Assembly: GCF_964204645.1 (NCBI RefSeq)
Contig: NC_134026.1
Coordinates: forward strand, 4,154,001 to 4,218,000
DNA: 64,000 nucleotides
DNA from: Tubulanus polymorphus
Lineage: Eukaryota; Nemertea; Palaeonemertea; Tubulaniformes; Tubulanidae
Direction: 5' to 3'
In this document: positions 22,740-58,362 of the stretch, piece by piece
How the letters are laid out: every line of letters starts with the position of its first letter
Numbering within the stretch: position 1 is the stretch's first letter
Program-made: the position numbers and the translations under genes
Notes under the pieces: model-generated
Databases searched by the model: none
The model's input: the letters and a program-made list of their open reading frames with translations, nothing else
Told to the model about the DNA's origin: nothing

Positions 22740-24772
22740 TTATTCGTTGTTTTCATATTTTGCAATGAATACGACACCCTCAGTGAGAATGACTATTAAG
22801 CAACCTCCAGCAAATAGTGACGTAAGTATGGCGCTATAACTGAAAACGGCTGTGTGGTTAATGATGATTGACGCAATTGGAGAGAACGCTACTCCAGTGC
22901 CAGCTCCAAATATGATTATTGTGAATTGTATCGGGCTTAGAGAAAATCGTTCCTTCACCCAACCGAAAGACATCGGGAATGCACATCCGATGGCGACACC
23001 CATAGTTACAAACGATACCCAAAGGGTTTCCCTGTCTCCAACAGTAAAGGTTAGCAGCAGTACTCCGCTTAGCCCTATTAGTAGATGTATGCAGAGAAGT
23101 TTCGTGGTTCCTGTAAACTGTAGAAATATTGTCATTACGATCCTATCGATCATTACTATGGCTTGATAAACGCTGAGCAGATGGGCAGCCTCAACGGTTG
23201 AAGTGCCATCGTAACATTCCACCGCGAACTGGGTAGTTAGATTACCAATTACAGCGATTATACCACCAACACAAGCTAATAAAAGAAATCCCAAAAAAGT
23301 TCCTTTTTTATCCGATGTCGTGCTCTGAGTCGAACATTCGTCCAACTCTTCGTATGGTAATCGATGCTGATTTCCGATTTGACAAACGTAAAAGAAAATC
23401 GCAACTACGATGAAAACAGCAGAATTGATGCATATCGGGATATATATTTGGATATCCGGTGTGACTGGTTTCATTTCGAGAGTACTGTTAGACCAGTTAC
23501 CATCAAGTTTGTGTCGTTCGTAACATCCGATCCTCTGAGCGTTAGCTTGCTGGCTGTGTTTAACTGCGCTTTCCGATAAAAATGGCGTATAGAGTAGAGG
23601 CGAAATGATATTGCCAATGGGAATCCCGGTCAGAACTGTATTGAAGATGGTCGCACTTTTAACACCCCAAATCTCCGAACAATATACCAAAGCAACTAAA
23701 GAAATAAGATATAATCAAACATGTATACTATTGTGATTACACTGGTCAGTCGACTGGTTCCCTAGGATACACCTAATAAACGTGGCAAAGTAAATCTTTC
23801 AGAATGCGATCGGTCAACCTTAAATTGGTTACAACCAACAATGACCACAGCTTAATTAAAATGGGATCCAATGGGAACACTCAGAACGTGAGCATGTCCG
23901 TAAGCAAAGAATAGGCTGACGATTCACCGAAAAACTGATTTAGCTTTTGGATTTGTATTATGATCGCCTCACATGGGCTTCAGACCCCAACTGGGCGTTC
24001 CCTTTTTATGATCCGTCTATCACGGGACTGACTCTATCATCTTTCTACTTCTATAATTACTGTATATCATCCTAACGGACTCCATCATCTTTATACTCCT
24101 TCTTCTACAATACACCGCACTCTTATCATCATACCTTTATTCCTTCTACAATATTGGTCTAGCCTCAATCAACTTGTCTCAACCAGAGTCAAAAAGTCCC
24201 ACAGGACCAAAAGCAGACTGACCAGTGTAAATAAGTTACAATAGATAAGATAGCTTATGTATTATTAGAATTGAATCAACTAATGTATATATATTTTTTT
24301 CAAACTTTGCATACCTACTGCCGTTGCTTCGGCAAAGAGCGTGGCTAAGAATACACACACATTAGTGAGTATGAAATTGGTACTAAATCCGACGATCATC
24401 CAGAAAATTCCCGGGAACAACATTGAGAACAGCAATAAATACTTTGCTTTCACCATAGTTGATCCGACTAATATTGCAATATTTGCCAAAAAGCAGCCAA
24501 GTCCTTGCGAGATATACAAATATGTAGAATCGTGGATACTTTTCTTGTTTTGTGCCTGGATGTCATACATAATTACTCCCAAATTGAGCAACACAGATGA
24601 CTGAAAATGTACAATATTATACAAAAATGTGATGGTACATCATTCAAACTAAAAAGTAAAGATATTATAATTGGCTTCGAAATGAACTTACGTATGAGAC
24701 ATGAAACAATAAAAGAAGGATGACTTCCATGTACCTTCTCAGAGTACCACGATCAGGAATATTAATAGACAT
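22740..24772 (-). CDS. MFS transporter, NaGLT1/MFSD4-like, tandem copy 1
   Basis: Exons 24772-24692, 24600-24315 and 23695-22740 (phases 0 and 1) give 440 aa with about 12 hydrophobic segments. Similarity to the sodium-dependent glucose transporter 1 (MFSD4) family is judged from the spacing of several motifs: an EIWG block before a G-x-x-x-x-PLL segment in the first half, and AHLLSVYQ, then a late GCAFPMSFGWVKE block resembling FPTGFSWLE in the second. A long loop between halves carries the sequon NWSNST. The start MSINIPDRG is the first Met in the exon holding TM1; a further 5' exon is possible. Substrate is unknown; family members move sugars or urea across the plasma membrane. Compared with copy 2, intron 2 is 619 rather than 120 bp, so about 500 bp was gained here or lost there. 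UNC93-like was considered as an alternative. Confidence 0.85.
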
Positions 24773-27205: not shown

Positions 27206-28727
27206 TCATATTTTGCAAAGTAATCGGACACACTCAGTAAGAACGACTATTAAGCAGCCTCCAGCAAATAGTGACGTAAGTATGGCGCTATAACTGAAAA
27301 CGGCTGTGTGGTTAATGATGATTGACGCAATTGGAGAGAACGCCACTCCGGTGCTAGCTCCAAATATGACTATTGTGAATTGTATCGGACTTGGTGAAAA
27401 TCGTTCTTTCACCCAACCAAACGACATTGGGAACGCAGATCCGATGGCGACACCCATAGTTACAAACGATACCCAAAGGGTTTCCCTGTCTCCAACAGTA
27501 AAGGTTAGCAACAGTACTCCACTTAGCCCTATTAGTAGATGTATACAGAGAAGTTTCGTGGTTCCTGTAAACTGTAGAAATATTGTCATTACGATCCTAT
27601 CGATCATTACTATGGCTTGATAAACGCTGAGCAGATGGGCAGCTCCAACGGTTGAAGTGCCTTCGTAACATTCCACCGCGAACTGGGTAGTTAGATTACC
27701 AATTACAGAGATTATTCCACCAACACAAGCTAATACAAGAAATCCCAAAAACGTTCCTTTTTTATCCGATGTCGTGCTCTGTGTCGAACATTTGTCCAAC
27801 TCTTCGTATGGTAATCGATGCTGATTTCCGATTTGACAAACGTAAAAGAAAATCGCAACTACGATGAAAACAGCAGAATTGATGCATATCGGGATATATA
27901 TTTGGATATCCGGTGTGACTGGTTTCATTTCGAGAGTACTGTTAGACCAGTTACCATCAAGTTTGTGTCGTTCGTAACATCCGATCCTCTGAGCGTTAGC
28001 TTGCTGGCTGTGTTTAACTGCGCTTTCCGATAAAAATGGCGTATAGAGTAGAGGCGAAATGATATTGCCAATGGGAATCCCGGTCAGAACTGTATTGAAG
28101 ATGGTCGCACTTTTAACACCCCAAATCTCCGAACAATACACCAAAGAAACTATAAAGGAAAAAATGAAATTCAACGTAAGTTATGACAGATAGATTATTA
28201 CGTATATACGATTAGAATAAAATCAACTAATATATTCATTTCAACTAGGCATATGTGCGCTGTACATACCAACTGACGTTGCTTCTGCAAAGAGCGTGGC
28301 TAAGAAAACACACGTATTAGTCAATATGAAATTGCTACTAAATCCGACGATCATCCAGAAAATTCCCGGGAACAACATTGAGATTAGCAATAAATACTTC
28401 GCTTTTAGCATGGTCGATCCGACTAATATTGAAATATTTGCCAAAAAGCAGCCAAGTCCTTGCGAGATATACAAATATGTAGAATCGTTGATACTTTTCT
28501 TGTTTTGTGCCTGGATGTCATACATAATTACTCCCAAATTGAGCAACACAGATGACTGAAAATGTACAATATTATACAAAAATGTGACGGTACATCATTC
28601 AAACTAAAAAGTAAAGATAATATAATTGGCTTCGAAATGAACTTACGTATGAGACATGAAACAATAAAAGAAGGATGACTTCCATGTACCTTCTCAGAGT
28701 ACCACGATCAGGAATATTAATAGACAT
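27206..28727 (-). CDS. MFS transporter, NaGLT1/MFSD4-like, tandem copy 2
   Basis: Exons 28727-28647, 28555-28270 and 28149-27206 have the same phases and, for the first two, the same lengths as copy 1, giving 436 aa. Only scattered substitutions separate the proteins (for example the loop ELDEC against ELDKC, and IGCAFP against IGSAFP). A single-base length difference close to the end shifts the frame, so copy 2 ends LLCKI where copy 1 ends IAKYENNE. The stretch encoding the central loop and the start of the last exon is identical in both copies, which suggests gene conversion. Intron 1 is 91 bp in both copies. Same orientation, with about 2.4 kb between the genes. Membrane location and transport role are inferred from the family; substrate unknown. 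Confidence 0.85.
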
Positions 28728-42689: not shown

Positions 42690-45600
42690 TCATATTGTAC
42701 CCAAATCATCGGACGCAACACTAGAGCCTTCCATTATGCAAGATTCGGTAGCATGAAGCATCGAAGTATCGGTAGGCTTATCGCCTGCTTGCAATTGATG
42801 TTTAGAATTGAGATCACGTTTTTGAATGTTCGGCTCATCCTTCGCCAGACAACTGGGAATCAGCCGTCCCGACGACAACGTGATACATTCCGATGGTGTT
42901 TTAATAATATCGACATCAGCTCGACTAATGACGTCACTGCCGTTCGATTCGGATGCGACCGGGTTTACAATTTCGGGCAAAACTCTGTCGATTGCTTTTA
43001 CTGTATGGACAATAGAAGCTGAGCGTTCTACCATATTTTCACATGTATTGATGATGCTTTCTGCCCCGTACTGGGCAAGTGAGCGTCGAAGGCGTAACTG
43101 TTCGAGACTCGGTGTCGTGGGCGGCATACGAGTTGGTTTCCAATGTCTAAATTCGTCGTAAACGTTTTCATTGGCACACGGTCTCAGAAATACCGATATC
43201 TTGGATTGTTTCGCAATGTTCATTGTTTTGCTACCCGTACCGCAGAGCTCTATATCATTCTGTTTTTCTTCAATAGCCTTTTCAATTACAGCTTCATCTT
43301 CCTCGGCAACCCTATCCATTACTGGTTTTTCCAACGCTTCGTGAAATTCAACCAACTCATTCGAGGGAAACGGTTTCTTTCGTCGAAGAACGTCCATCTT
43401 TTTGGACACATCTGTAACCCTCTTGGATAAATTCGATCTAAATTTCTGCAAATTACCCAGCATACTATCAGATATCGATCCTGGCTGACCGATGAAATAC
43501 ACCAGTACCAGTATACCCAACAGACCAGCGATAAAAATAAATATTATTAACGTTGCTATTTCCGATAATTGAATATCTTGTTCGATGCCTGCGTAATTTG
43601 GAAATCCCAGTAGAGTGACGGCAAATGCCTTAACTAATGAGAAATGTGGACCTCTATGCAACATGCAAGCGTAAACTCCTTCCAAATCAGCTTTTCTGTT
43701 AACAGACCGGACCTTGAGGATACCGTTGCCATTTTTATCCTCTGCAATCAGAATGGTTTCGCTTTGACGTACGACGGTATTTTCCTTCAACCAAGTAACG
43801 TGTTCGGATGGTTGATGACAGAGAAGCGTCACCGTGCCCTTTTTATCAAAGTAAACATCTTCATACGACTCGGCCAGACTCGCCAATGCTGATGGTATTG
43901 TATCATCAAGACGCCAATACAAAATACTATCAGCCATATCAAAGGTATCGCTATCAATTGTCACCGTATGCACGATCCCAGAAAACCCACCGATGTTGTC
44001 GATCTGTTGGGCAACCGCGCTCCAATCGTTCCGGCCGACGCCTCCCACGTAGAGAACGTTTCCTGGTTGATAATAACTCGATACTGCCGACACCTGGTAA
44101 GGTGATCCGCCGTCAATGCTTATATCGGCGTCGCTGCCTATTATGCGAATTTTGACGTAGTACCAAGTTTCGATTTCGACCGGGTCTGTTGAGACACAGT
44201 GTTGGTTATCACCGATACAGAACCGAAACCGGCGACGATGTAACTGCATCGAGAAAAAATTACCTTTTGTACCCTTATTGTACAAAATCAGACCCTCGAG
44301 ATCGTGTAAAAGTAAAATAACCGATAATATGATTTCGTTATGTTTTGAATGGCCACAACAAGGAAGGATACCATATTCAACTCCATGGAAATGGGGGTAC
44401 ATTCCTTCGACGTCAAATACATCTTTCCCGGTGACTCCTCGACGCTCAGGGAGTCCGTGACCTTGCCATCCAATTTTGTGTACGAGTAACAATTGTTTAT
44501 AATTAACACGCAAAATCCCTATTTCGCCATAAAAACCGCGCCTGTTTTCAGCGCCTCCGACGATCATAGGCAAGTCGAAGTTTGTATCAGGTGGCAGTGT
44601 TCGGTCGAATCGTTTTTCGACTGGTGAGTCGTCGTCGATCGTAAGCGAAATGCGATACCTGTCTACGTTCAAGTAAAGATCGTGCCAATTATCGGGCGTG
44701 AGCTGCTTCGTGGAACTTAATTGCGTGGTGGTTTCATCGACCTTGATTGACACGACTACAAACGCGTTCGCGAGCCTCATCGTCAATTCGCTGCACGAAT
44801 TTGCTTTACATTTGGCTCGGAACCGCTGCGCGAAAATGCCGTCAGAAAGTGTCGACCTGAGTCGTATAAACATCGACAATACGAGACTGGGTAAACCCCG
44901 GGGAGGGTATAAAAGATGTCCAGTACTCATGAATACAGCAACCATTTTACTTTCGTCTTCGCACGGAGCATCGAAACATTGTTCAGCGTCAGTTCCAGAA
45001 CCTTCGCAGGTTTTCCCAGCGCCGACGGGGCTAGGGTTATTGCAGGTTCGTTTTCTAAATCGGCGTCCGACCATACATGATTTATCACATCGGCTCCATT
45101 CATCCCAGTGCGACCAGCTTCCATTAACAGGGCAGGCAAAATTCAAACACTCCTTGCTTTGAGTCGTTTGCGAGTTTTCCTTACATTTGCGATTTTTGTT
45201 GGATTTCAAACATTCCCGGAATCGGACATGGAAGCCCGTACCACACGATACATCACAAGGTGACCAGTTTGACCAATCAGACCACAATATAAAATCAGCT
45301 TCACAGTTATCGTTAACACATTTCCGGGCGTCACGATTGTGTCCAACGCAAGATTTACCGCCATTTGTTGGGTGAGGTTTGTTACATCTGCGTGTTCGTA
45401 TCCGTTCTCCCTCGCCACATCCAGCTGAGCAATGGCTCCAATGACCCCAACCCGACCATTCACCATCAACCGGACATGCCTGAGAATATTTGTAACAATT
45501 CAACACCGACCAGTACTTCTGCCTTTCAGTCTGATTCAATATATTCAACACGTCCCCGTAACTGCAATGATTTGTTATGCATAGTAGTTTCAATTCACGA

Positions 45601-46211
45601 TTCCTTTCATGGAATCTTTCCAGGTTGGCTTCAGCTACCACCATTCCGGGGTTATTTCTATTTGGGCAATGAACATTGCATTCTTTTTCTTCGAATAGAA
45701 ACCCATTACAAGGCAAGCCATTATTAGTGGGCGCGGGATTATTGCAGAGGCGTTCTCTGCGACGGATTCCGTGACCGCAGGCGATATCACATTTTGACCA
45801 ATGCGCCCATTTCCCCCACGCACCATCCAATGGACATTTACGAAAGTCGCTGTCTATCGTGCATTGATACGCCGACCAGAATCTATCCTGGAATTCCATA
45901 TCTCTGTCATCGGTTCGATCAGCCGTCGACTTCCATCCAAATGAAACATGTCCATCTTCTTTTGAAGAACGCGCACAAATCTTCGACATTTTGTTCAGGC
46001 ACATTTTGACGAACGATGACCTGTCCGCGGCTGAAAGATGGAAAAGTGCTTGAGCCATAACTCTTGGTAGTTCGTAAAACATTCCATTGCGTACTGCGGT
46101 TACATTTATATTTTGTTGGTCGTATTCAGGTCGACGGTGAGAACCATTTGAGCAAACTTTGGACGATAGCATCAAAAACATGAAAATTGTCAAAACCTTT
46201 GAGAATGCCAT
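42690..46211 (-). CDS. Intronless single-pass membrane protein: 4 TSP1, 2 LamG-like, Ig-like, TM, long tail
   Basis: One uninterrupted reading frame. The start at 46211 is chosen because MAFSKVLTIFMFLML begins a signal peptide; the frame is open to 46289, where an acceptor-like site (TTTCTCAG) precedes the Met, so a noncoding 5' exon is possible. TSP1 repeats begin near residues 126, 249, 305 and 360, with WxxW and CxxxC motifs (for example WGHWSHCSAGCGEGERIRTR). Between repeats 1 and 2 there is a spacer of about 60 aa. Two concanavalin-like/LamG-like domains follow at about 422-600 and 610-780 (MIVGGAENRRGFYGEIGIL, VGGVGRNDW), then an Ig-like domain at 790-850 (TLLCHQP to GVYACML), a TM segment at about 884-907 and a cytoplasmic tail of about 265 aa with no recognised domain. 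I know no named family with this order. It is probably an adhesion or pattern-binding receptor; the function is inferred only from the domains. Confidence 0.88.
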   Translation of the reverse strand: MAFSKVLTIFMFLMLSSKVCSNGSHRRPEYDQQNINVTAVRNGMFYELPRVMAQALFHLSAADRSSFVKMCLNKMSKICARSSKEDGHVSFGWKSTADRTDDRDMEFQDRFWSAYQCTIDSDFRKCPLDGAWGKWAHWSKCDIACGHGIRRRERLCNNPAPTNNGLPCNGFLFEEKECNVHCPNRNNPGMVVAEANLERFHERNRELKLLCITNHCSYGDVLNILNQTERQKYWSVLNCYKYSQACPVDGEWSGWGHWSHCSAGCGEGERIRTRRCNKPHPTNGGKSCVGHNRDARKCVNDNCEADFILWSDWSNWSPCDVSCGTGFHVRFRECLKSNKNRKCKENSQTTQSKECLNFACPVNGSWSHWDEWSRCDKSCMVGRRFRKRTCNNPSPVGAGKTCEGSGTDAEQCFDAPCEDESKMVAVFMSTGHLLYPPRGLPSLVLSMFIRLRSTLSDGIFAQRFRAKCKANSCSELTMRLANAFVVVSIKVDETTTQLSSTKQLTPDNWHDLYLNVDRYRISLTIDDDSPVEKRFDRTLPPDTNFDLPMIVGGAENRRGFYGEIGILRVNYKQLLLVHKIGWQGHGLPERRGVTGKDVFDVEGMYPHFHGVEYGILPCCGHSKHNEIILSVILLLHDLEGLILYNKGTKGNFFSMQLHRRRFRFCIGDNQHCVSTDPVEIETWYYVKIRIIGSDADISIDGGSPYQVSAVSSYYQPGNVLYVGGVGRNDWSAVAQQIDNIGGFSGIVHTVTIDSDTFDMADSILYWRLDDTIPSALASLAESYEDVYFDKKGTVTLLCHQPSEHVTWLKENTVVRQSETILIAEDKNGNGILKVRSVNRKADLEGVYACMLHRGPHFSLVKAFAVTLLGFPNYAGIEQDIQLSEIATLIIFIFIAGLLGILVLVYFIGQPGSISDSMLGNLQKFRSNLSKRVTDVSKKMDVLRRKKPFPSNELVEFHEALEKPVMDRVAEEDEAVIEKAIEEKQNDIELCGTGSKTMNIAKQSKISVFLRPCANENVYDEFRHWKPTRMPPTTPSLEQLRLRRSLAQYGAESIINTCENMVERSASIVHTVKAIDRVLPEIVNPVASESNGSDVISRADVDIIKTPSECITLSSGRLIPSCLAKDEPNIQKRDLNSKHQLQAGDKPTDTSMLHATESCIMEGSSVASDDLGTI

Positions 46212-47927
46212 TTTTACGAATGTCGCTTCCGGTTCTGAGAAACAGTTCCAATTGTTGGTGCATGTGATGTGCGTTGTTGAAACCAACATGGTATTTCAAT
46301 ATGGGAATTAAATGAGGAATGATTATACACCTCTTATTTGAATATATAGTCAAAATAAATGTATCTATCAGTTTGAAAGGGTTGATTTAGTCGGTACAAA
46401 GCAAATTCACATAATCCATACGTGGGTCTGGATGAGATTGTCCAAACTCGAATAGGCTACAAATAGTGAAAAATATGACTGAACATAGGCCTATTCTGGA
46501 TCACCATCTATTTGGGGAGGTAGTTGATATTTTTTCATTGTCAATATCTTTCTCATTTTAAACTCCACACAGACATGGCACGTGCTCGACTTAACCAGCT
46601 GATCAGAAAGGCTGACTTCTTTCTATGAGTGAGTCAAGATTATAAATGGATACATTTTTTCAATAGCGATATGTCTAATACAAGTCTCGTATTTATCAAA
46701 TGGATTCTTGCTTTCGTGTTTAGCTTGGTAGCTCGCTTATTAGGCCGATTAAGAGTGTCTTGAGAGATGTAATTAGTGCGGCAACCCCATAACGCTTGTA
46801 CATATGTCAATAGAAAATAAATACATTCGCAAATATACATGTGCAATATATATATTGCGTGCTTAAACGTTGTATGACGTATGTATATTGAAGTATATAT
46901 TTTAATAACAGAGGAAACAAACGTTGCGTATATAAAGAATGTATCGCCGTTATTCCATTTTCATATATCGATTAAAGATACGGTTTCTGCAAATATATTT
47001 TCAGCAGTCGCATTCGATATTTATGAATTCTGTAGAACCGGGCCCACTATACACCCCTGTTAGATAAACATATAAAAATACTCGTTCGTCGTATTATCAG
47101 ATTTACGTTTGATGCTTTGGATTAATAAGGGTTTTAGGATATTTACCCCCTCGATGAATAGGGAATCACGAAACAATACAATAAAGTCGAAATTACTCTG
47201 CATGTCTTGTTTAGCCACGTTTATTCGTTTCTATACTCGTCTGTTCTTGCGTTATTGAAAAATTCGATTGTATTCACTGTACGTTGCGCGCAGGAATTTT
47301 CAAAAGCTGGCACTGCAAAGATCTTCGAGACTTGCTATCGGATATGCACGCTCTGGTGTCGGTTGATCATATATATAGAAACGGGAATATATCTACACAG
47401 TCTTCATCATGCGACGCATACGTTCTCAAAGATTCCCACAGCACAATAAATAGCGTCGTCGTTATACACGCTTTGCAAATCCCAAATTAATTATACAGCG
47501 TTGTTGTAAGTTGAGCGCAAAATGTGATGTTTTGAAATGCCTCCCACGCGGTTGGACTGAACAGTCACACATAACGCGAGCTATCGCGTTAAACGTTAGA
47601 TTCAAACATCGTCAGCTGGTATCGGAGCTGATTTCTGAAATTAATGTATCACCTGTACCAAGTTTTCCGATTTTTGTCACATGGAAATACAAACAGGCGC
47701 TGATAGCACATTCGCTTATGATCGATGGAAATTAATGGATGTTGGCTTGGCTCTCGGGTCATTTCAGGGAGTCCTCGCCTAGAACTTCCGCAGCGAACGA
47801 AGTCGTGCGTCCTCCGATCGGAGATGAAAGCTGATCGCGCTGACTGATACATCGAGCCTAGGTAAATGACAGATATACATGTATCGAAACTCGGAATCAC
47901 AAGTGGCAGTTTCATGTAGGACGGAAT
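46212..47927. other. Intergenic region between divergent TSP1/LamG and Kv genes
   Basis: No exon-like ORF was recognised. The two genes diverge, so both promoters should lie here. Confidence 0.5.
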
Positions 47928-50900
47928 ATGTCGATGAAAGATTTGGTTACTTTGAATGTAGGCGGTCAAATATTTCTGACCAAAAGGTCTACATTGACTA
48001 CCATTCCAGAAACCCGTTTGGGCGAACTGACGGAGGACTGTGAACACTACGATAAAGATACACAGTGTTATTATTTTGATCGGAATCCTCAGATTTTTCA
48101 GTTCATTTTAGACTGTTACCGCACAGGCGAATTTCACTTTCCATCGTATCTATGTGGAAGAACTATAACGGCCGAGATGGAATACTGGGGACTATCGAGC
48201 AGTCGCATAGCTTACTGCTGTTTACAAAATCGCGACCAGTATATGGCCGACGAATCCGTTGTGGGAACTCTGATTCGGGATTGCCTCGTCAACGCTATAC
48301 AGATCACACGAAAACGTCTCCAAGCTGCTAAAGGATATAAACAAAAACTGTACAAATTCGGCATGTTTTTGGAATATCCTAGTTTATCGAGACCGGCTAA
48401 AGTATGTATTATTCTCAATACACATTTCTATTGAAACAGCGTGAACCTGCCATTAGAACAGGTATAATGTATTTGTTAATGCCTCTAAACAAAAAAAATT
48501 GCCCCCTAGAACGAATCTGCCGACCGTGAATATTCCATATTCATATGTGAATCTTTGTACGGTCTTAACTAAACCTTCCTAATAAACGCTTCACAAGGGC
48601 AAATCACGCACACCAAGTAAAGTGCGCGTTTGTCTATAGGCCTAACAATCATTACAGCAGGTTTGACTTGCGGCTTAATTTGATTGGCTGTAGTATGATT
48701 TTCGTGATATTTTACTCGGTTTTGTTGGTCGTAGGGCAATACAGATATCGCATATATCGTTTATGTTGCCCGAACTCCCAAATTCTGCTTCTCCACCCGG
48801 TTTAGTTAGATTGACACCATATATGTACAAACAATTGTCGATTCTTATTTTGAACCTTACGATCATAAAGAGAACTGATCGTGATGAAAATCGAAATCTT
48901 AAATTAGCAAATCGATCAGATTAACCAATAGTAACAGGGCATCTCCCCGTATGGCACAGCCCCTGGCTTGGGGATGTCATTTTCTCGAAATGTATTTATA
49001 TATTATGTATTTGTTATTACAGAGAATAAAGTATTCATATTCATTAACCCACATTAAATGGCGGTCTTTCAGGGTTAATATAAAGGCAGTTGGTTTTACA
49101 GTGTACATAGCGATCTATCACATCGCTCATAAAATTCAGTACGATTAGCCGTCCAATATTTGAATGATACACATATAATATGTATCATGAAATTTGAAAT
49201 TTAATGCGGCTGTATTACCATGTTTCAGTTAATGAACACATGACACAGTAATGTAAACGCGGGCCAGATAACGGTTCGGATAAATAGAATTCTTGCATAC
49301 GTAATGTATAAAAAAATTTTTTTTTTAAATACAAGAAATGAATTAATTGTTTGGATTGAAATGAACGAGGAAAAGGTTTTGCTTCGAATGACCTCCACTC
49401 CTATCTATCGAAATGTGAAATATATAGAGAATTAGTGACTTACGAAACGGAAAATTGTTCCGATATGTATCTTATATACTGCCTACAGGCGATTGGAATA
49501 TTTCTAATATTTAGGGGGGGGGGCATTTTAGTGGGCCAACCCATTATTCGGCTTGTCCGGGAATTTCTTAATGGGGACACGCGTAAGAGAACTGGTTTAA
49601 CGTCACTGTTCATTCCTTCCGGTACCGTTAGTTTAATACGTTTATGTTTTATCAGCTCAGCTTCGGCTTGTCCTTAACTCGTGATTGAATAACCTGTAAC
49701 TCGACGATATAACTAAATGTATCACGGTCACTAGATTATTTACCATAATCTCCATCTGTGGGCAATTTTCCAAACTATATGTGCCACTTGGCATCTCACA
49801 GAAAGTCAAGTGGTGAAAAGAGAGTGGTCCGCGGAAAAGACCAATTTTCGTACGGAGTAGGTTACCAGCACCGCATAGGGGATTTACTAGATCTTTATAG
49901 TCGAATATAATCTTGATGTTTTTGATACCCGAAGGCCCTTTGGAAAAGCGATTTGTCTCGACAAGGCAATCATAAGCGGTTCATATACACACATTTTGTA
50001 TTCGATGTGAAAAATGTTTTCGCAAGCGAAATTTCATCTTAACAACACGAATGGCAGTAACGGCCACGATATTTTGCATCAATATTTCACAGTGCTTACT
50101 AGTCCGTATACGAACGTGATAATTAAACTTTTACGTTCTCTTGAAAAAAAAGTCTGCAGGTCTATAGTCATAGATAGACAGTTGAAAATAGAAGAATGAA
50201 ATTATGATTTATGCAGCAGTTAGCGAAGTTTGATAAAAATCAGTCGTCGAAATAATCGACCAAGGTTCGGCGATGTTTAACGGAATATTCGAAAAGCCGT
50301 TAGCGAGTATGATTTCAGATATTGAACACTGCGTGGCTGAATGTTTTGATAATCTTAGAACATGAAAACCAACTCCAAAGTTTATTAATGCCTTGAAAAT
50401 AGCACATATATTGCGTAATATTGTCGACAGTGAATAATATCATAATATAGATCATATAATGTTAAGGATCAATGAAGTTATCTTTATATGAATATACCGA
50501 TAATTGAATTGAATTGACCGGCAGATATACTCTAATGACGTAGTACACATCCTCTAAAGAACAATTATTAGAAATGATCAAAATAGAAAACGAGTTATGA
50601 CATAAATCTAATTACAAAATAAATGCCAAAATTCATAATTTTAATTGTTATTTTGAAATGCCAATATTGATCGACTCACACAGAAACCCCTATGTATTAT
50701 ATAACAGATATTAGGTATCAATAATAAGATAAAAACCCACTATTTAGAGATTAAAAGAATTTAAAAACAAGAATTTATTCATTCAATCTAAAATAAATAT
50801 AAGACACGACGTTTCGATCTCACCCTTGAGATCATCGTCAGGTAATAAATAAATTCTTGTTTTTAAATTCTTTTAATCTGTAAATAGTGGGTTTCTATCT

Positions 50901-53579
50901 TATTATCCCTTCACCACGTTTGAGTGTGGTTATCGTTCTATAGGTATCAATGTATATGAACATTATTGTGACGGTTTTTTCAGCGTCTAAAGAATGATAT
51001 AGATTAAGACAAGGCCAATATTATACAAGAACTGTGTTCTTTTTTCAAAAAATAGCGTATTGATACGTTACGATAGAGCAGCTCTTTTGAGACTCGAGTA
51101 GGGAGGAGTTCCTATATGACATATTTATCTATTTTATATAATTGTACATTTTGCTAGGTTACATTATTAGTAACCCGTTTTTTATATGAATAAATAATAG
51201 AAGAACGTGTGCATAGACAATAGAAATGGCGCTATTGCTAAAATACAACGTGGGCTGGCAAATGAAAATATTTCAACACGATATGCATCGCTGTAGCATA
51301 CTTTATCGATGCGTAGTTTTAATTGCATTTTTTACCAAATTGGAAATCTATCGACAACGTGCTTCTTATTTGGGTAAACACGAATAAATATAGGGAAATA
51401 TCTGAAATTTATAAAGCTAGTTTCGTTTTAATAGGTAACAATATTCGTTGTACGTATGTTTATATATACACGTACACAAGAATAGATAAAACCAGTTTTG
51501 GAAGCCTGAACATCAGCTGGTACATTTTCATATCAATTTACATCGGAAACAAATTATTGACACCTGTTCAATTAGTAATTAATTGCTGACTACGTTTTTT
51601 GTCCCCGATTTTATCTTTTACTTTCTGAATGCCAGGATGATTCTTTCAGAATAAGAGCGTACGTCATTTTGAAATAATGAATTTGATTCTTTTTGAAATA
51701 GTGAAACACACTTTGCTCATCATCATATCAATGTTTTGAATGTGATTTGATCATCATATCAAGATTCTCAATGAGCCGTGTTCTTTCTTGATTTAGCATC
51801 AATTGATCCAGTGGTGTGGTTAACTTTAACTGTGAATTGTTTTCAGACCCATTAAGTTGATTTCAGCACCTAGCCAAAACAACTGTTTAGGTCCCGAAAA
51901 CAACCAAAAAGCCAACGTGGGTTAATGTCCAATACAGTATTTGTATTTTATGGGTTAGAATATGACACCATTCGTTGACAGCCTACGCAAACATTGATCA
52001 CAAAATATCAAGTATCCTCTCAGCGCAGATGGAATGCATTTTGCGAGTGCTTTATATAATTTAATTGCCAATTTATATGAAATATGTGAAGAAAGAAAAT
52101 AACAAAATTACTCATCAAAACCGACAAATTTATCGTTCTCTTGAAAAGAAATATCATAAACATCATCACAAATCCGCTTATCACTATTACGTATATTGAA
52201 ATATCTGTAAATGAGTGCTTTTATTAACACTTAGAACGTCGTAAAGAAGTATGCAATATTCTATTGGTTCTTCCTTTCTGTTTCAGATATGGTCCTTAGT
52301 ATACCTGACCATGGTTCTACTATCGGTGATATCGTTCAGTTTACAATCGATTCCGCAGTCAATATTCAGAGTAACCGCTAAACACCTCAAACTCAACGAG
52401 TCCGAAAAACCCGCCGTATGGAACAAGTCGCAGCTGGATAAGTTTACCGACGTCGCCCCGTGGGTGTTGGGATTTGACGTAACTTTAAACTTGATCTTTA
52501 GCTTAGAATGGCTTTTCCGCGCGGCCATAGCTCCACCGAAGTTGCACTTTTTCCGTTCGAAAATAAACATTGTGGAAATGATTTGCAACATCAGTTTCTG
52601 GGTGTACTTCTGCCTCATCATTGTCAAAATGCAGGGCATCTACCCGCAATGGGTGGCAAATATACATATCGTCGTGCTTATGCTGCAGCCGTTTCGAGTT
52701 CTACGTCTGCTGAAATTAGCGAGAACGTTTCGTCAATTTAACACAATAGTGCTAGCCATTCAGTCGAGTGGAATGGAATTTTTTATACTAAGCGTCTTCC
52801 TAGGAAGCGGGGTTTTGTTTTTTGCTATCGAAATCTACTACGCCGAACTATCGGTTAGCGACACGTTCTATACTATACCGGTCGGTATGTGGTGGGCTTT
52901 AGTTACTATGACTACCGTTGGCTTCGGGGACCATTACCCGAAAGGCGTTTTCGGGTATGTCGTGGGCACTGGCTGTGCCGTGACGGGTATTCTCATTACC
53001 GGTATGACGATTTCGATATTGACCAGTAAAATCACGACGTTTTATCGTTACTCCGATATGCAAAATACGTTCGAGGTTGGTGAAATAAGTTTACCGAAAC
53101 AATTCTTAATGGATAAAGATGACGAAGAAGATGACGAAGGGACGGCAATAGATATGGTATGCGTCGGTAATCCAAAGTATGATAATAATAAAAAGGACAA
53201 GTCGAACGGTCATAAGCGTTTTACGATCACAACAACATCGTTATCTGATGGCCCAAGTTGCCAGACGAATTACTACTCGGCCGTCGACGAGGACTCGAAA
53301 AGTCCGGCCAAGTCGAAGCGACACAAGAAAGGCGAGGGTAAAAAGACCTGTGACAAAAATACGAAGGTTCACGTCGAACATTCTTTGGATAATTCGCCAT
53401 CGAAAACGAAAGCTCTGCTGCCGTCACCGCATGATGACCAGTTCACGGAAGAAGCTGTGACGTGTTCTATGGTCAACGACGCCGACGACCACCCACGAAG
53501 TATCTCTTGCGAACCATCTTCGGTCGATGCAGTATCCGTATCGATATCGGAAGGCGTCTGCTGTTCAAAAGAACGATAG
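47928..53579 (+). CDS. Divergent voltage-gated-type K+ channel subunit (Kv), 2 exons
   Basis: Exons 47928-48401 and 52287-53579 join at phase 0 to 588 aa. The T1/BTB domain (about 5-105; VTLNVGGQIF) keeps the zinc-binding HX5CX20CC pattern of non-Shaker Kv families. S1 starts at about 160; S2 keeps Phe and Glu of the charge-transfer centre, and S3 has Glu for the usual Asp. S4 (about 290-307, MLQPFRVLRLLKLARTFR) aligns without gaps to Shaker from S4 to S5: R3, R4, K5 and R6 positions are charged, but R1 and R2 are Leu and Gln. The selectivity filter TTVGFGD (367-373) is intact. In S6 the PVP motif is replaced by TIS (399-401). The tail is hydrophilic, Lys/Asp-rich, about 170 aa. Closest feel is Kv3/Shaw-like or a modifier subunit; plasma-membrane tetramer expected. 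Another Met lies at codon 3. Confidence 0.92.
49514..49523 (+). repeat. Poly-G run (10)
   Basis: Ten consecutive G within the Kv intron. Confidence 0.85.
50721..50906. mobile_element. 59-bp inverted repeat enclosing a hammerhead-like core
   Basis: Arms 50721-50779 and 50848-50906 are reverse complements at 57 of 59 positions, with a 68-bp centre. The centre holds a GACGTTTCGATCTC...GAGATCATCGTCAGG motif of the type found at the termini of Penelope-like retroelements and retrozymes. It lies in the Kv intron and has no coding capacity. Confidence 0.8.
50800..50842 (-). ncRNA. Hammerhead-ribozyme-like motif (candidate)
   Basis: On the minus strand: CTGACGA (fits CUGANGA), one extra T, a 7-bp hairpin GATCTCA/TGAGATC with an AGGG loop, then GAAA, a two-base-pair stem III (AC/GT with a 5-nt loop) and a GTC cleavage triplet. 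These are the core elements of type I hammerheads with minimal stem III, as described in Penelope-like elements. Stem I is weak and the extra T at the base of stem II is non-canonical, so activity is doubtful. Confidence 0.5.
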
Positions 53580-55494: not shown

Positions 55495-57227
55495 GTAGCA
55501 ATAGAAAATCAATATAGATGTATATGATTACTAAAAAGACCAACAGAAAAAACAACATTAGTTTTAAGCACTTCGGTATGTTATTTAATTTTCCTGTGTG
55601 GTTTGCAATGAATTGCCAATCTTGCAATAAATTCACAGCAGCAAAATCTCCAATATCCTAATTCGACGCTTACATACCCACCATGTCCGCCATTTTTCGT
55701 TTTTTTTTCTATTTAGTAGGACGGACATGAACACATATTTCCATTTTTGTCGAACAAATGAACTATGCCTCAGGTTAAAACAAAATGTGTTTCTCGGTGT
55801 TCGCCAGTTCGTTCACGGGTTAGGTTTTTTAGCCGCAACCACACCGCGCCTGCAGATGTGAATGAGCCACGTGACATCACTGTTATATTAACTGCGTGAT
55901 ATATACCAATAAATTTACAATATTGCATTTTTATCAAATACAAATTCTTTTCTTGTTAATAAATAGCATTTCCCAGTAAAATTAATTCAGGCGTTGGCTT
56001 TTTATTTCAAGTCAGGGTGTGTTTTCTGCCTTGTGATTTTGATTCAATCAAAATGGAAACGGGGAAGTGCACAGATACCAATTTAGATGTCACACATTAT
56101 ATATATATGTATATCGACAAACTTTTTGAAAAATGCAGCCGTTTTAAAAGCTATTTCGTAAAGATCGGATTAACAGCTATGAGCACTATGGAAGTCCGAT
56201 TGTAACAAATATTTTCACTTCCTAAGCGGAGAACACATTAGCAAAAAGAATGCCAGAACGTATGCGACATACTGTGTTAATTGAATCGATATATTCCTCT
56301 GAATATTGAATTTGCCGGGTTGCCTTTCTCAACCGATTCTCCAGGGCTCCATTTGGAACTATCGAAAATGTATTTACCGATATGCTGTAAGCATGTCAAT
56401 GTTGAATAATCCCACGTCAACTACTGAAATTTGTATGTCTCCATATTAGCGATATGTAGCCCCACAAAGATGTAGCCCCACCCGGTGGTATCTAACATGT
56501 ATATTACGTATAATCGTGGACTCTAAAAACGAGAATCCATGCTATAATTATCGCACGGCCAATACCTCTTTTACACACCTTTCGCGATGACCTCGATGGT
56601 GAAAAATGCTTAGTTGTCAATCATGCCAACATATGGAGACCGTAGGTCTTTTTTCACAATCAAGGCGGCAAGACCGCAAAAGAAACGACTGTGTAGTTAA
56701 TGATAAAAATCTTACGGAATTTTTTTCTAAAAATCGCACGAATCTAAAATGGACGACCATTACAGAATGCTGAACCAAGTTTTGGCAATCAGTGTCTCGT
56801 CGTGAACGGTTAGTCGAAGACACACAATAAATCTGAACTTCCCTCCAAAATTATATGTACATGTATATGTACGTATAACTGAAATACGGATTACCAAAGT
56901 GATCGTCAATCATCGTCAAGTGTCCCGTGATGATTGTTTATCGTACATGGAGAGGCCCTGATAAAATTTCGGGTCAGTTGAGTTTAACACGAGAACTGTA
57001 CAATGCGCCATGTTAATACGTCAAATTACACATGTGTCTGGATATGGTAACGTATGATTAACGCTAAATTTAATTAGAAATAGTTAGAATTTGCAGCGCG
57101 GCTCAATTGTAACTGTGTAAGGGAATCAACCACACGGCAGTTTACATATTCAGTTTTTCGCCAACGGGAGGCCAATCGCGGAGACATTAAGAAAACGTAA
57201 GCCACAGATAACGGACTCATCGTGAAA

Positions 57228-58362
57228 ATGGATAGCGATCACGCTGAAAATATGGCACCCGTCGATTTTTCTGGCACATGGGAGCTGGAAAAAAGCGAAA
57301 ATTTTGAAAAATACATGGATATTTTGGCAAAAAGTAAGTTCGAAAAAATTATTCTCCAAAACAACTCGAATTTGTTGCTATGAGCGTACATGAAAAATGT
57401 TTGGATGTTTTATACATTCAAAGTTATTTACCGCAGCTCAATGTGGCTGCAGGAACTGAACAACCGCCATGTTTGTTTCAGATGAAAATTTCGTGGTGCG
57501 GCAAAGTATGAAAATGGCCAGGTACGCCAAGCCGGTTCAGACAATTCGGCAAAACGGGGACAAATTCTCGATCGAAACGAAGGTCACTTTTTGGACTGGA
57601 AAGATAGAATTTACGATTGGCGATGACTACGAAAGTAATGAACGAGGTCATAAACTAAAGGTATAGAATACATCAGGGGCGAATCCTAGATATATTCCAG
57701 AATATAGTCAGAAAAATATGAATAACATATTACACCAGTCTTTATCATGGATCCCGTGTTTCTACGGATAATATTATGTATGTAAATGCTGTTTTGGTCC
57801 CTTTTTCTTTACGAAAGGGTCTTGGGGGTACACGAGAAAAAGTGTCAGCAAGATACTCGATTGGCCAAAACTTGACACGTTGATGTGAATTACTAGCTCC
57901 AATGTTGTATCTTGAAATTGGGGCCGTCGTGGCACGTACCCCTGGTATAAAATTCACCGGGAAAAGATTAACGTAAATTTTCCGTAAGGAAAACTGTTTT
58001 ACTGATGTCTCCAGCAGGGCGCTCTGTCGTATACGCATAGTTTCTGTCCGGCCGGGACTCAACGTGTCTTTTTCGAATGTTTCCAAGGGCGTAGGACAAT
58101 GGGAAGGCAATAAGTTGGTGATCAAATACGAACCAGTTGAGAATCCGACGAAACTGCATAAGCAAATAATTACTCGAGAAATCATTGACGACGAGATGGT
58201 TATGGTAGGTCGTTCATACCATTAATTCCACGGTCTATCGAGAAACGTAAAACTATAACTTTTCTATAGGCCTGCGTCTAATTTCATCGCACATTTCAGA
58301 CACTGGAATTGGTCGGTGAAGAGTTTTTGTGCAAACGGTATTACAAAAGAATAGACGCTTAG
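57228..58362 (+). CDS. FABP: Fatty-acid-binding protein family (iLBP), complete (4 exons)
   Basis: Exons 57228-57333, 57482-57660, 58088-58204 and 58300-58362 join in frame to 154 aa and reproduce the classic four-exon FABP/CRABP gene structure. Key signs: FSGTWELEKSENFEKYM at the N-terminus (family FxGTWKLVxSxNFxxYM), TIRQNGDKFSIET, GHKLK at the exon 2/3 border, QWEGNKLV, REIIDDEMVMTLEL, and the C-terminal CKRYYKRI containing the R-x-Y carboxylate-binding pair. The acceptor for exon 3 (TTTCCAAG/GGC) was chosen because it keeps phase and aligns with the conserved K-x-(3)-W/L-x-G-x-KLV spacing; there is an in-frame stop farther upstream. Compared with typical 132-135-aa members it has about 10 extra N-terminal residues and a longer loop near YEPVENPTK. 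It is a cytosolic lipid chaperone by family; retinoid binding is possible. Confidence 0.92.

Follow-up and report, generated by a model that had tools for sequence, protein, structure and literature searches.

The PXP motif of S6 has been described as conserved in Shaker and Kv1–Kv4, and its second proline is absent in all KvS (PMC4623978, PMC3440756). Mutation of the first proline of Kv1.1 (P403A, i.e. AVP) produces small, shifted and dominant-negative channels, and mutation of the second (P405S) shifts activation and reduces current (PMC9331732). Hydrophilic residues at P475 of Shaker can give a constitutive conductance (PMC3406610). Lineage-specific expansions of Kv genes were reported by Jegla et al. 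2012 (PMC3519636), whose Table 3 gives 13 Shaw genes for Lottia and nine for Capitella, with Shab and Shal present as single genes in both; the accessible text of that paper also describes 11 regulatory Shaker subunits of Nematostella, born by expansion. PXP and PVP do not occur in this accessible text, and changes in S6 or S4 are not described there. A literature search for natural Kv genes without PXP in spiralians returned gene counts only, and in the papers searched no account was found of such gate and sensor changes in lophotrochozoan Shaw expansions.

The Kv gene examined here lies on the + strand of a 64,000-nucleotide stretch (i.e. the window, which is the whole of the DNA analysed) of Tubulanus polymorphus contig NC_134026.1 (GCF_964204645.1, forward positions 4,154,001–4,218,000). 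It has two exons (47928–48401 and 52287–53579) and encodes 588 amino acids. The following features were assigned, in window coordinates:

47928..48401, + strand: exon 1, start Met and T1 (BTB_2) tetramerisation domain, 158 amino acids (Pfam BTB_2, E=1.1e-25)
48135..48221, + strand: T1 zinc motif HX5CX20CC of the Kv2/3/4 type (sequence and alignment with paralogues)
48402..52286, + strand: intron, GT-AG, phase 0, immediately 5' of S1, with donor GT at 48402
52287..53579, + strand: exon 2, S1–S6, pore and cytoplasmic tail of ~150 amino acids; 430 amino acids plus stop (Pfam Ion_trans, E=7e-22; PDB matches to Kv2.1, Kv1.2 and Kv3.1)
52665..52724, + strand: S4, with L Q R R K R at positions R1–R6 and a Pro after R2 at 52689–52691
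S4 codons, + strand: L (R1) 52677–52679; Q (R2) 52686–52688; R3 52695–52697; R4 52704–52706; K5 52713–52715; R6 52722–52724
52911..52931, + strand: selectivity filter TTVGFGD (sequence and alignment)
53001..53015, + strand: S6 segment G-M-T-I-S, with Gly at the Shaker 471 position and TIS replacing PVP 473–475

The order of T1, six transmembrane segments and a K+ filter is that of a Kv alpha subunit. A palindromic, MITE-like repeat (50740–50915) lies within the intron, with near copies (85–94%) at ~40 scored places in the genome and 1372 first-look candidates. Elsewhere in the window, the – strand carries a 1201-amino-acid open frame (42690–46295) in which Pfam recognises four stretches of thrombospondin type 1 and two of laminin G and which, by eye, has a single transmembrane segment, i.e. 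an adhesion-type protein in one exon. Two near-identical multi-transmembrane open frames of 324 amino acids (22740–23714 and 27206–28180, – strand) gave no Pfam match; it seems that a transporter-like gene was recently duplicated in tandem here. Exons at 57201–58225 (+ strand) resemble a fatty-acid-binding protein by reading; the one exon that was tested had no Pfam match.

S4 and S6 of the Kv gene align without gaps, both to Kv2.1 by HMMER and, independently, by MAFFT. A sequence-only reading of the gene had proposed a divergent Kv subunit with an altered gate and sensor, and this was right: Leu and Gln occupy R1 and R2, TIS (53007–53015, codons ACG ATT TCG) stands in S6 where canonical homomer-forming Kv1–Kv4 channels have PXP, and both the filter and the T1 zinc motif are intact as claimed. 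The description of two missing outer gating charges held in part. A non-basic R1 is ordinary, being found by alignment in Kv2.1 (Q) and Kv4 (V), so Gln at R2 is the sole unusual charge loss. None of the other 23 Kv genes in the genome has the Pro that directly follows R2 (LQPFR). Both the charge-transfer Phe of S2 and its acidic partners are intact, as are R3–R6 of S4, and a Gly occupies the Shaker A471 position (53001–53003), two residues ahead of the first-proline site. A single-sequence AlphaFold model of S1–S6 had a pLDDT of 39.7, and for this reason no structural claim is made.

The Kv genes of the genome were searched for with three different protein queries, each of which recovered the same 24 genes (those other than the window gene being labelled L002–L024). 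Two are Shaker-type, one is Shab, one is Shal and 20 are Shaw-type, including the window gene. A separate transmembrane exon after an apparent acceptor just 5' of S1 is shared by most of the Shaw-type paralogues and by Shab. PXP was retained in six canonical genes, namely Shaker L011, Shaker-like L019, Shab L009 (PIP), Shal L024 (PVP, in a separate S6 exon) and Shaw L013 and L007. By best PDB match, L011 went to Shaker, L009 to Kv2.1, L024 to Kv4.3 and L013 to Kv3.1. L013 and L007 are thus the only ones of the 20 Shaw-type genes with PXP, and the other 18, with the window gene among them, lack the first proline as follows:

First proline absent, second present: TVP in L004, L006, L010 and L014; AVP in L008; AIP in L012; IVP in L017 and L021; IIP in L002 and L003; VIP in L005
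Both prolines absent (7/18): SVS in L015 and L016; SVT in L018; NFS in L020; TFS in L022 and L023; TIS in the window gene

The AVP of L008 is the mutant state of Kv1.1 P403A occurring naturally. R2 is non-basic (Q, E, I or M) in 14 of these 18 genes, and R1 and R2 are both non-basic in eight genes, of which Shaw L007 is one. What the window gene shows is therefore a trend of the whole family in pronounced form, and the sharing of gate and sensor changes to varying degrees by 18 genes makes the family a natural gating experiment and not a one-off oddity. Close pairs had dN/dS values of 0.13 (L022/L023, TFS), 0.47 (L015/L016, SVS), 0.36 (L002/L003, IIP) and 0.12 (L017/L021, IVP, for which dS was high), indicating purifying selection on genes without one or both prolines. 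The window gene has no close relative, so the evidence in its case is the open frame and the conserved motifs. Two tandem Kv clusters were also observed (G000 C2:30183832-30336974 and C1:2471396-2475353), in which the T1 exons are near-identical (L002/L003; L015/L016/L018) and the transmembrane exons more divergent, as if the T1 exons had been homogenised by gene conversion.

A maximum-likelihood tree of concatenated T1 and transmembrane regions was generated for the Kv genes of this genome and reference Kvs such as Kv3.1. All 18 genes without the first proline fell together with Kv3.1 and the two canonical Shaw genes, L013 and L007. The window gene joined L002/L003/L005, L012 and L008, with support of 81.9/93 and 84.1/93 at the two labelled joining nodes; branches were long, including its own, several backbone nodes were weak and deep nodes were moderately supported. 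AU tests rejected placement of the window gene with Shab (p=0.0005), Shal (p=0.0004) or Shaker (p=1e-5). Its T1 domain is most similar to those of the same Shaw radiation and carries HX5CX20CC, a motif common to Kv2–4. Sequence and tree together show that the gene encodes a divergent Kv alpha subunit of the Shaw/Kv3 lineage. Grouping with the other clade lacking both prolines (L015–L023) was rejected (AU p=0.001), which argues against a shared origin of the double loss and indicates that the second proline was lost at least twice. Fitch counts, which depend on this tree, gave one loss of the first proline, two of the second and three changes each for Gly471 and R2. Among the genes of the Hox cluster is a Lox5-like one whose KLNGP parapeptide marks Spiralia. 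The suggestion of a spiralian-specific branch is plausible in view of the large Shaw-lineage radiation and the spiralian Hox genes, as judged by comparison within one genome.

The window gene resembles the vertebrate KvS (Kv5, Kv6, Kv8, Kv9) in its T1, six transmembrane segments, K+ filter, altered PXP and origin by expansion, and like them lacks the second proline, having Ser at that site. In contrast, KvS are of the Kv2-type lineage, whereas grouping with Shab/Kv2.1 was rejected here, and the first proline was lost in 18/18 genes of a Kv3 lineage and both in 7/18. The regulatory NvShakR subunits of Nematostella, as presented in the accessible text, likewise form a lineage-specific Kv radiation whose members need a partner, but belong to the Kv1 subfamily and have had their function measured, whereas the window gene is known from sequence. 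With 20 Shaw-type genes and single Shab and Shal genes, the genome repeats the pattern tabulated for Lottia and Capitella; those expansions appear in the accessible source as counts, while S6 and S4 changes are described for the present genome. Human Kv3.1 (PDB 7phh) and the canonical L013 and L007 share the Shaw-type T1 and transmembrane core of the window gene, but have PVP and a GYGD filter, and the window gene is only ~30% identical to them.

The earlier proposal of a modifier subunit or of reduced voltage dependence is reasonable for this gene. More specifically, we give an even chance to a modulatory subunit assembled through T1, which would resemble KvS in its working but have arisen independently from Kv3. 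The 18 Shaw-type paralogues lost the first S6 proline, and the lineage of the window gene later lost the second too. Its S6 gate would lack the PXP kink, its S4 is poorer in outer charges and contains a Pro that would break the helix, and its filter is intact. Such a subunit would most likely form no useful channel alone, but its intact T1 may permit assembly with other Shaw-type subunits, and in heteromers with partners bearing PXP or TVP it may alter opening voltage, kinetics or current size. This role is suggested by the intact 588-amino-acid frame, zinc motif, filter, S2 Phe and R3–R6; by placement in a radiation of 20 Shaw genes with PXP only in L013 and L007 (AU p<0.001 against a Shab, Shal or Shaker grouping); and by the closeness of its T1 to those of that radiation. 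It is also suggested by the absence of the second proline from all known silent KvS, the dominant-negative P403A, the regulatory Nematostella subunits and the purifying selection on close pairs. Against it, the order of loss is unlike that of KvS, the first proline having gone first here. Partners of the Kv3 type would fit; Kv2, which had been put forward as well, is disfavoured because the T1 and transmembrane regions are Shaw-type and a Shab grouping was rejected.

The main rival, possible but rather doubtful, is a homomeric K+ channel that bends at Gly (Shaker 466 and/or 471) and not at PXP; its dependence on voltage would be shallow, or it may have a standing leak. Gly471 is present in the window gene and in eight of the 17 other genes without the first proline but in no PXP gene, and could replace the hinge, making the channel functional alone; KCNQ and hERG also gate without a full PXP. 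By analogy with the Shaker P475 substitutions, the Ser of the window gene may lead to constitutive conductance and not silence. However, the glycine counts are not independent of phylogeny, the S4 Pro is left unexplained, and loss of proline is poorly tolerated in Kv1-type channels, as in P405S. An unlikely alternative is a dominant-negative, non-conducting brake that assembles with Shaw subunits and lowers current, forming no distinct conducting heteromer; Kv1.1 P403A and Kv1.2 P405L behave in this way and the T1 is intact, but a pure brake would not need the well-conserved filter and pore. That the gene is a pseudogene, results from an assembly error or has been given the wrong exon 2, as raised by the sequence-only reading, would agree with its long branch. 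It is scarcely credible, however, given a 588-codon open frame (chance survival ~5e-13), a junction with correct splice sites in the right phase, the related S6 losses of 17 paralogues and a genome search with the three queries that found no second S1–S6 exon nearby.

Expansions of Shaw in lophotrochozoans and silent Kv subunits were already known, and PXP has been treated as the shared hinge of Kv1–Kv4 gates; the family-wide dismantling of this hinge is more interesting than the window gene alone. We tentatively propose, at somewhat less than even confidence, a spiralian modulatory class derived from Kv3 and convergent with the Kv2-derived KvS, in which PXP would have been dismantled stepwise (the first proline once, the second at least twice) and many members would also have a Gly hinge and have lost R2. 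Eighteen natural variants beside canonical Shaw genes in one genome provide a ready series for testing the roles of the hinge and R2, and could also test whether silent subunits evolve repeatedly by one route.
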